A DNA stretch of 40,339 bases. Source: Desulfurococcaceae archaeon (GTDB taxonomy: Archaea; Thermoproteota; Thermoprotei_A; Sulfolobales; Desulfurococcaceae). Both the position numbers and the translations under genes were made by a program. The notes beneath the pieces were generated by a model that saw only the letters and a program-made list of their open reading frames with translations, did not search any database and was not told the origin of the DNA. Where the stretch lies: positions 1 to 40,339 of the forward strand of contig JAPWUD010000013.1 of NCBI GenBank assembly GCA_028275705.1, in the 5' to 3' direction. Below, one piece after another: positions 33,912-34,686 of the stretch. The number at the start of each line of letters is the position of its first letter. The stretch's first letter is position 1.

Positions 33912-33948
33912 GATGCCGTCGTGAAACTGCTTTGTTTTTCATATAAGG

Positions 33949-33956
33949 TTTATAAG
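33949..33956 (+). promoter_or_regulatory. TATA box of the candidate RNA gene
   Basis: TTTATAAG, about 25 nt before the first paired base of the RNA at 33974, the usual archaeal spacing. Confidence 0.5.
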
Positions 33957-33973
33957 GGTTGTTGATGTTTTCT

Positions 33974-34245
33974 CTACTGTGGAGTCGCCTCGAGATGCGG
34001 GTGTATCGTGGAGACCCAAGAGAGGCGTGTTTTGAGGGAGGAATCCAGGATGCGGGGTTTCCCCCACAGCAATGACCCAGAGGAAGCTGTGAAGGGGGAG
34101 CTGTGGGCTGGGGTTACCCCGAGCGGGTGGAGCCCTGTGATATGGATCCCGATGAAAAGGGATCCCGAGGGCGATGAAGCCAAGGGGAGAGGGCTTGATA
34201 TCGCTTGATATCAAGCCCAATGAAACCCGAACCCCTCATCAGTAG
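33974..34245 (+). ncRNA. Candidate GC-rich structured non-coding RNA of about 270 nt, family unknown
   Basis: A GC-rich island in an AT-rich genome with its own TATA box and no protein-like frame. The ends pair: CTACTG (33974-33979) with CAGTAG (34240-34245), then GAG with CTC. Inside are many perfect stems. They include CACAGC/GCTGTG (34065-34070/34086-34091), GGGCT-GGGG-TTA-CCCC...AGCCC (34105-34135), GGATCCC/GGGATCC with loop GATGAAAA (34144-34165), and a 12-bp hairpin (34191-34218). CGATGA and ATGA in loops resemble K-turn/K-loop elements bound by L7Ae. GAGGAA plus a late GAAACCCG recall RNase P RNA weakly, but the full conserved motifs are absent. SRP RNA motifs are not seen. Confidence 0.6.
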
Positions 34246-34686
34246 CACCATTGATGTATTCTCTCTACCATTAGCGAGCCCTATGCATTCTTCAACATTC
34301 ATACTTGCAACTTCTTGTTTAAGGAGCTTAGACTCCCTCCATTTTTTGGATTTAATCCCAACTCTCCACCCTTTTTATCTTGTCCTAATCCTGAATCAGG
34401 TTTCGTGAGTGTTGTTGATCACTTCTAATGGCTCGTAGGGCTTAATACCCATTACATTAAAGATCAAACTAGGAAAACTCATAGATTTCTCCAATCACCC
34501 CGGTCTTGAAGAGTGAGGCTCTAAATTACAATCTGACATAACAATGTGTTACTTTACTTTCCTGAATCGACATCTTCCTGGTTTCTATGTTTCTATATTG
34601 TTGTTTACTGGTCAGGACTCAAGACCTTCATCACTGTGCAGCCAACCCGAGCGCTCATCATCAATTTAATGCATTGCTTTAGTTCT
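34246..34686. other. Gene-free stretch of about 440 bases
   Basis: No convincing frame. The minus strand carries a short open stretch reading SKKWRESKLLKQEVASMNVE with no start site and a stop just upstream, possibly a relic. Composition is AT-rich again, in contrast to the RNA candidate to its left. Confidence 0.45.

Follow-up and report, generated by a model that had tools for sequence, protein, structure and literature searches.

A 321-bp non-autonomous IS607-family element of a Desulfurococcaceae archaeon that is probably a solo omegaRNA gene

A GC-rich structured locus and its affinities

A strongly folding, GC-rich island in the window (the entire 40,339-nucleotide stretch of archaeal DNA analyzed here) raises the question of what kind of RNA gene, if any, it represents. 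The earlier note had viewed 33974-34245 as a structured RNA gene with its own promoter, either a divergent known RNA or a new one. Several of the underlying observations are borne out. The GC content is 0.58-0.63 as against 0.36-0.45 in the surroundings, the plus strand of the region folds better than 200 dinucleotide shuffles (z -4.78), the minus strand is likewise more stable than shuffles (z -5.34), and no perfect stem of 10 bp or more (loop up to 12) occurs in the 40-kb window other than the 12-bp hairpin at 34191-34218, against a mean of 0.8 in shuffled sequence. The TATA box placed about 25 nt upstream is also present and conserved in other copies of the locus. The proposed closing stem CTACTG/CAGTAG, on the other hand, has to be given up, as its 3' arm (34240-34245) is unique host flank outside the element delineated below and none of the other copies has it; chance alone would yield 1.6 matches of 6 bp in a search box of this kind, and two were found. 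The true element extends from 33915 to 34235 instead of from 33974 to 34245.

A strong fold together with a TATA box would also suit a free-standing cellular structured RNA driven by a promoter of its own, such as an RNase P, SRP, C/D, H/ACA or L7Ae K-turn RNA. Rfam searches of the window recover no family at the gathering threshold and nothing relevant at E-values up to 10, the best sub-threshold matches being at chance level (SNORA73, E 1.2; sR14, E 9.7); searches of the related loci at the gathering threshold likewise recover nothing relevant. C/D and H/ACA assignments gain no support from the family models beyond such chance-level matches, and the same holds for the L7Ae-binding K-loops formerly read from GATGA/ATGA repeats, which fall in TnpB-derived sequence (codons such as 'PMKRDPEGDEAK'). 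The perceived likeness to RNase P RNA is contradicted by the genome's only RF00373 match, which lies elsewhere (G000:C3:10695-11013, 158.8 bits). With the feature being, in addition, multicopy, mobile and tnpB-derived, a cellular RNA is refuted for the named families and next to no credence attaches to it overall. What survives of the original reading is the GC-rich fold with its TATA box; the notion of a unique cellular gene gives way to that of a dispersed, mobile, IS607-derived sequence that appears to hold a TnpB omegaRNA scaffold.

A dispersed non-autonomous element

Searches with the window region return dispersed matches in its own genome (G000, a MAG-like assembly of 42 contigs) at 82-92% identity and matches in 17 of 61 relatives, and a 192-nt core is present in 26 of the 147 genomes of the order. 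The own genome is that of a Thermosphaera-like hyperthermophilic archaeon, one protein of the window being 96% identical to a protein of the Thermosphaera sp. MAG Bin P8. Eight full-length dispersed copies of the 321-bp element are found in the own genome (the one in the window, two on contig C25 and one each on C24, C18, C5, C30 and C40), with further copies in G002, G003, G006, G007 and G047. When 15 copies are aligned with their flanks, homology stops at two identical points, GCC on the left and AACCCC on the right, and the flanks are unrelated on both sides. The element (GCCGTCG...AACCCC on the plus strand, its leftmost 3 bp being the target GCC) is absent from the syntenic intergenic regions of the close relative G006 and of G004, and none of the insertion sites tested is common to different species. 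This multicopy, internally deleted sequence, missing at orthologous sites, is a non-autonomous MITE from an IS607-family transposon.

A plasmid search with the element gave no match, and a viral contig search gave one contig only (L147; IMGVR_UViG_3300026768_000034), which bears just the terminal motif ATGAAGCCCAAACCCC near its edge (75-93); this may be an IS607-type right end carried by an archaeal virus.

The IS607 parent and its proteins

At some loci the left ~50 bp and the right 192 bp of the element are separated by 1.3-2 kb. The complete element L046 (in G047) comprises, between the same ends, a serine-recombinase TnpA (Resolvase match, 8.7e-25) followed by a 438-aa TnpB (Cas12f1-like_TNB match, 1.9e-14), the last codons of which coincide with the 192-nt core. 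The segment 34044-34235 of the window element correspondingly matches the tnpB 3' end and right end of full-length elements.

TnpB, the nuclease ancestor of Cas12, is also encoded in the own genome. An open and apparently intact 442-aa version (L039, G000:C26, 207-1535) carries the same scaffold core, is the only one to do so among the own-genome TnpB loci examined, and matches the ISDra2 TnpB chains 8bf8/8h1j. In the own genome the TnpB zinc-ribbon family (Cas12f1-like_TNB) has 16 matches, from which many TnpB lineages would appear to coexist there. The TnpA of the C26 locus has lost its first ~133 residues; the sampled own-genome TnpA copies are truncated, those on C26 and C2 starting at residue 134, and a full TnpA at 48% identity is also present.

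A strong protein match in any frame had been named as evidence against an RNA gene, and formally there is one, ORF 34008-34208 being 76% identical to the TnpB C-terminus. Such a match is expected, since an omegaRNA of this type overlaps the tnpB 3' end. The core idea of a GC-rich structured RNA with a TATA box is well supported. As an independent protein gene the ORF is ruled out: it is a TnpB remnant, and many other copies have the corresponding frame disrupted, so that protein coding cannot explain the conservation.

A related element on contig C25 (L033 6105-7776; G000:C25:56104-57775) consists of a left end, a TnpA N-terminal remnant, a 217-aa ORF and an omegaRNA right end. This ORF has a signal-like hydrophobic N-terminal stretch and no match in a Pfam search, and is possibly a cargo gene within a TnpB-less IS607 element.

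Architecture and covariation of the predicted RNA

Inspection of the short copies shows that they keep a left end with the TATA box, a hairpin derived from the zinc-ribbon coding part of tnpB, and a 192-nt 3' region ending in ATGAARCCCRAACCCC, directly after which unrelated flanking DNA starts (Table 1). With a scaffold at the tnpB 3' end and right end, and a potential guide from the adjoining flank, this layout is, to judge from its order of parts, that of a TnpB omegaRNA (reRNA) plus guide. By the usual archaeal spacing, transcription is predicted to start at about 33976-33980. The hairpin region 33986-34027 matches sequence within tnpB (L039 1246-1272; L046 2983-3012), and the ~75 nt between the zinc-ribbon hairpin and the core are missing from the short elements. 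The f5 (G050) and g14 (G028) short elements retain a corresponding hairpin, as does one G058 copy, and the full set of left end with TATA box, zinc-ribbon hairpin, core and right end is retained in the g1, G047, G050 and G028 copies.

Two variants of this design were observed. G050-type copies (e.g., L059, L063) carry an additional TATA-like box, TTATATAAGCTC, immediately before the 5' hairpin; it does not stem from the left-end TATA box and is a possible independent promoter gain. The G028 sequences L014 (1380-1629) and L028 (1380-1630) are diverged full copies in which the terminal hairpin is replaced by a different palindrome, GCCTACATAGGC...

Table 1. Positions of the element, its tnpB-derived parts and the predicted RNA features in the window
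Feature	Position	Strand	Basis
Whole non-autonomous element (MITE)	33915..34235	+	dispersed copies, fixed ends
Left end (LE) of IS607 element	33915..33964	+	92% identical to LE before tnpA, L046 1317-1365
GCC, left junction; target site, predicted TAM of empty site	33915..33917	+	GCC in 15/15 aligned copies
TATA box TTTATAA	33949..33955	+	sequence; conserved in copies
5' hairpin, arms 33986-33991/34022-34027, inner 33999-34002/34014-34017	33986..34027	+	tnpB zinc-ribbon coding remnant
Residual ORF, TnpB C-terminus remnant, not an independent gene	34008..34208	+	76% identity over 58 aa to L039 TnpB
Predicted omegaRNA/reRNA scaffold core, 192 nt	34044..34235	+	41 aligned homologues
Long-range helix, 5' strand GGGTTTC, pairs with GAAACCC (34222-34228)	34055..34061	+	94.7% of cells paired
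Helix CCCACAGC (34063-34070) / GCTGTGGG (34100-34107)	34063..34107	+	97.6% of cells paired
Helix GCCC (34132-34135) / GGGC (34169-34172), enclosing GGATCCC (34144-34150) / GGGATCC (34159-34165)	34132..34172	+	
12-bp hairpin GGGCTTGATATC-GCTT-GATATCAAGCCC	34191..34218	+	covariation; perfect stem
Conserved right end ATGAAACCCGAACCCC, scaffold 3' end	34220..34235	+	near-invariant across 41 sequences, followed by unrelated sequence
Predicted guide TCATCAGTAGCACCATTGAT, host flank, 20-nt length inferred	34236..34255	+	first unique bases past right end

In the alignment of 41 cores, a six-helix structure leaves 91.2% of cells paired. On its own, RNAalifold did not recover the 3' hairpin and gave 34133-34135 other partners; its output was replaced by hand-built helices on the ground of the alternative C-G/G-C exchange. 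The earlier note had proposed looking for compensatory changes in relatives, and these are present: double changes occupy 93 cells, where shuffles give 31.5 (0/500) and slid controls 3-10 or fewer, counts for which the structure was partly chosen on the same alignment, with relatedness inflating the shuffle tests and not the slid controls. Restricting the comparison to the 28 short copies and including the 5' hairpin gives 88 such cells versus 34.3 in shuffles (0/500). The registration of the 5' hairpin shifts by two columns between lineages, which makes its pair count of 76.6% an underestimate.

At the level of individual helices, one pair of GCCC/GGGC shows a compensatory C-G to G-C change in 14 sequences, the inner stem GGATCCC/GGGATCC shows A-U/G-C and C-G/U-A exchanges in 14, 17 and 11 sequences, and two pairs of the 12-bp hairpin show G-C/C-G exchanges in 12-14 sequences. 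The long-range GGGTTTC/GAAACCC helix has almost no covariation, though ~95% of its cells are paired, and lies where a pseudoknot is found in IS607 reRNAs (PMC10711439). Divergence within lineages is roughly halved at paired relative to unpaired positions (0.055 vs 0.112; 0.057 vs 0.100), a difference confounded by base composition. The excess of pair-preserving changes is significant among the G050 copies, and not so among the g1 copies alone (0.51 broken vs 0.61 expected, p 0.08) or the own-genome copies alone (p 0.26). Compensatory changes thus counted support the helices, and the secondary structure is conserved with RNA-type covariation as in omegaRNAs; part of this covariation may have arisen while the sequence still lay inside tnpB.

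Target site and predicted guide

The GCC at the left junction recurs in the G050-type copies with a mapped left end. For one of these, L059, the empty site in G040 reads CTAACGA-GCC-TATCTCC, and it is from this one empty site that the reading of GCC as target and TAM comes; empty sites sought in the genus for three g1 copies were not recovered. With GCC at the left junction, CCCC at the right end and GCC in the empty site, the dinucleotide CC is common to both ends and the target, and at this single site there is no target duplication beyond the crossover dinucleotide (GG/CC). Read on the opposite strand, the IS607 crossover dinucleotide GG (PMC4058570, PMC10711439) corresponds to this shared CC. 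In these terms, GCC followed by the guide denotes an empty or vacated site, and CCCC followed by the guide an occupied right junction. By analogy with ISXfa1, in which the motif adjoining the target is the TAM (PMC10711439), GCC is predicted to be the TAM here. Off-targets of the window guide were sought in the genus, and none lies above the control level.

In G050, one element (L060 2965 onward; G050:C1:70964) lies past the 3' end of a tRNA gene at a distance of 4 bp, and its guide runs into that gene.

A probable solo omegaRNA gene and its rivals

We consider it probable that the MITE is a solo omegaRNA gene, composed of TATA box, scaffold and flank-derived guide, that serves TnpB in trans. 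The derivative has lost tnpA and nearly all of tnpB and kept the left end, the TATA box, the zinc-ribbon hairpin and the tnpB 3' end with the right end; the hairpin and the tnpB 3' end/right end would jointly make up the omegaRNA (reRNA) scaffold for the TnpB of this family. The TATA box would drive an RNA from ~33978 through the scaffold into the right flank, the first ~20 nt of which would act as the guide. A TnpB provided in trans, e.g., from G000:C26, could then load this RNA and cut DNA carrying GCC followed by the guide sequence, i.e., insertion sites vacated or never entered; the occupied copy would be spared because its guide is preceded by CCCC and not GCC. With the occupied copy as repair template, the element would be restored or spread, to its benefit.

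The main rival, which we hold to be unlikely, is a decayed IS607 MITE whose right-end DNA is kept solely for the transposase and whose RNA is no longer made or used. This would be in keeping with the usual passivity of MITEs, the truncation of the sampled own-genome TnpA copies on C26 and C2 and the weak compensation within the youngest copies. However, ~250 nt are kept where an IS607-type TnpA needs roughly 60-80 bp at an end (PMC6188088), and the retained zinc-ribbon hairpin is not at an end, its neighbouring sequence having been deleted. Further, identical non-contiguous parts are retained in several families, the TATA box lies at promoter distance, and copies that have lost coding capacity still conserve the paired sites.

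Exaptation of TnpB has occurred in other settings, and a MITE omegaRNA could in principle be recruited by the host, e.g., for guiding TnpB or a nuclease-dead relative to regulate an adjacent host gene, as might be imagined for the G050 copy beside the tRNA gene. Yet the guides all differ, the copies sit at unrelated loci without a tested insertion site common to different species, and no further match to the window guide in the genus rises above control, which renders host recruitment very improbable.

Beyond the solo omegaRNA gene of the window itself, we lean, with less assurance, towards viewing the element family as purely expressed guide-RNA genes, which parasitize or cooperate with a shared TnpB and whose design has been kept, or has arisen repeatedly, in several families of the order. 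Were this so, one nuclease gene would serve many self-addressed guides, in a manner functionally akin to a dispersed CRISPR array aimed at empty insertion sites. If the RNA is active, TnpB-guided retention would operate without a nuclease gene in cis, and an element pared down to ~320 bp, comprising a promoter and a guide RNA, could profit from a TnpB encoded elsewhere, with many simultaneous self-addressed guides per genome for one nuclease; this would also explain MITEs that retain more than transposase binding sites. The family, absent from Rfam 15, would on the same condition offer about 28 natural scaffold variants of a predicted thermophilic archaeal IS607 omegaRNA with a predicted TAM GCC.

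Comparison with known systems

IS607 TnpB RNAs in bacteria and IS607-linked MITEs are both known. The literature searched, with most subscription journals outside its coverage, yielded no account of TnpB-less IS607 omegaRNA MITEs or of MITEs comprising a complete omegaRNA gene. The closest counterparts are the reRNAs/omegaRNAs of bacterial IS607 TnpBs (ISXfa1, PMC10711439; ISFba1 and the RAGATH-18-derived RNAs, PMC11061315), which share with the window element a right-end RNA with a flank-derived guide, a serine TnpA, a 2-nt crossover and a scaffold of several stems with a proposed long-range (pseudoknot-like) helix near the guide. The predicted window RNA differs from them in being archaeal, in overlapping the tnpB coding end with its scaffold, in a predicted TAM of GCC as opposed to GGG, AGGAG or GAGGG, and in the lack of a nuclease gene in the element; RAGATH-18 and the haloarchaeal sotRNA families give no match to it at the gathering threshold or at E-values up to 10.

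The archaeal omegaRNAs of IS200/IS605 elements (haloarchaeal sotRNAs RF02656/RF02657, already in Rfam, PMC12558985; SisTnpB1, PMC10640517) are likewise located at the tnpB 3' end/right element. In contrast to these, the window RNA matches neither RF02656 nor RF02657, its predicted TAM is GCC where those reported are AT-rich (TTTAA/TTTAT; PMC10640517), its transposase is a serine recombinase, and the element is devoid of tnpB.

In Staphylothermus marinus, 14 IS607-related MITE copies of ~260 nt with one truncated TnpA were described in 2009 (PMC2678158), before the function of TnpB was known. They resemble the window element in coming from the same archaeal family, in their link to IS607 and in the truncated TnpA, but that study linked them to the sequence preceding the transposase ORFs and gave them no RNA interpretation. 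The G028 copies, candidate members only of these 14, suggest that the S. marinus MITEs merit re-examination as omegaRNA genes.

Stand-alone omegaRNAs of IscB exist. Among RAGATH-18 RNAs, 64% adjoin tnpB and 5,771 of 16,029 do not (PMC11061315), so solo copies occur there too. Both kinds are like the window RNA in having no adjacent nuclease gene; unlike them, the window unit has mapped ends and a TATA box, and as a defined mobile element it has been amplified.
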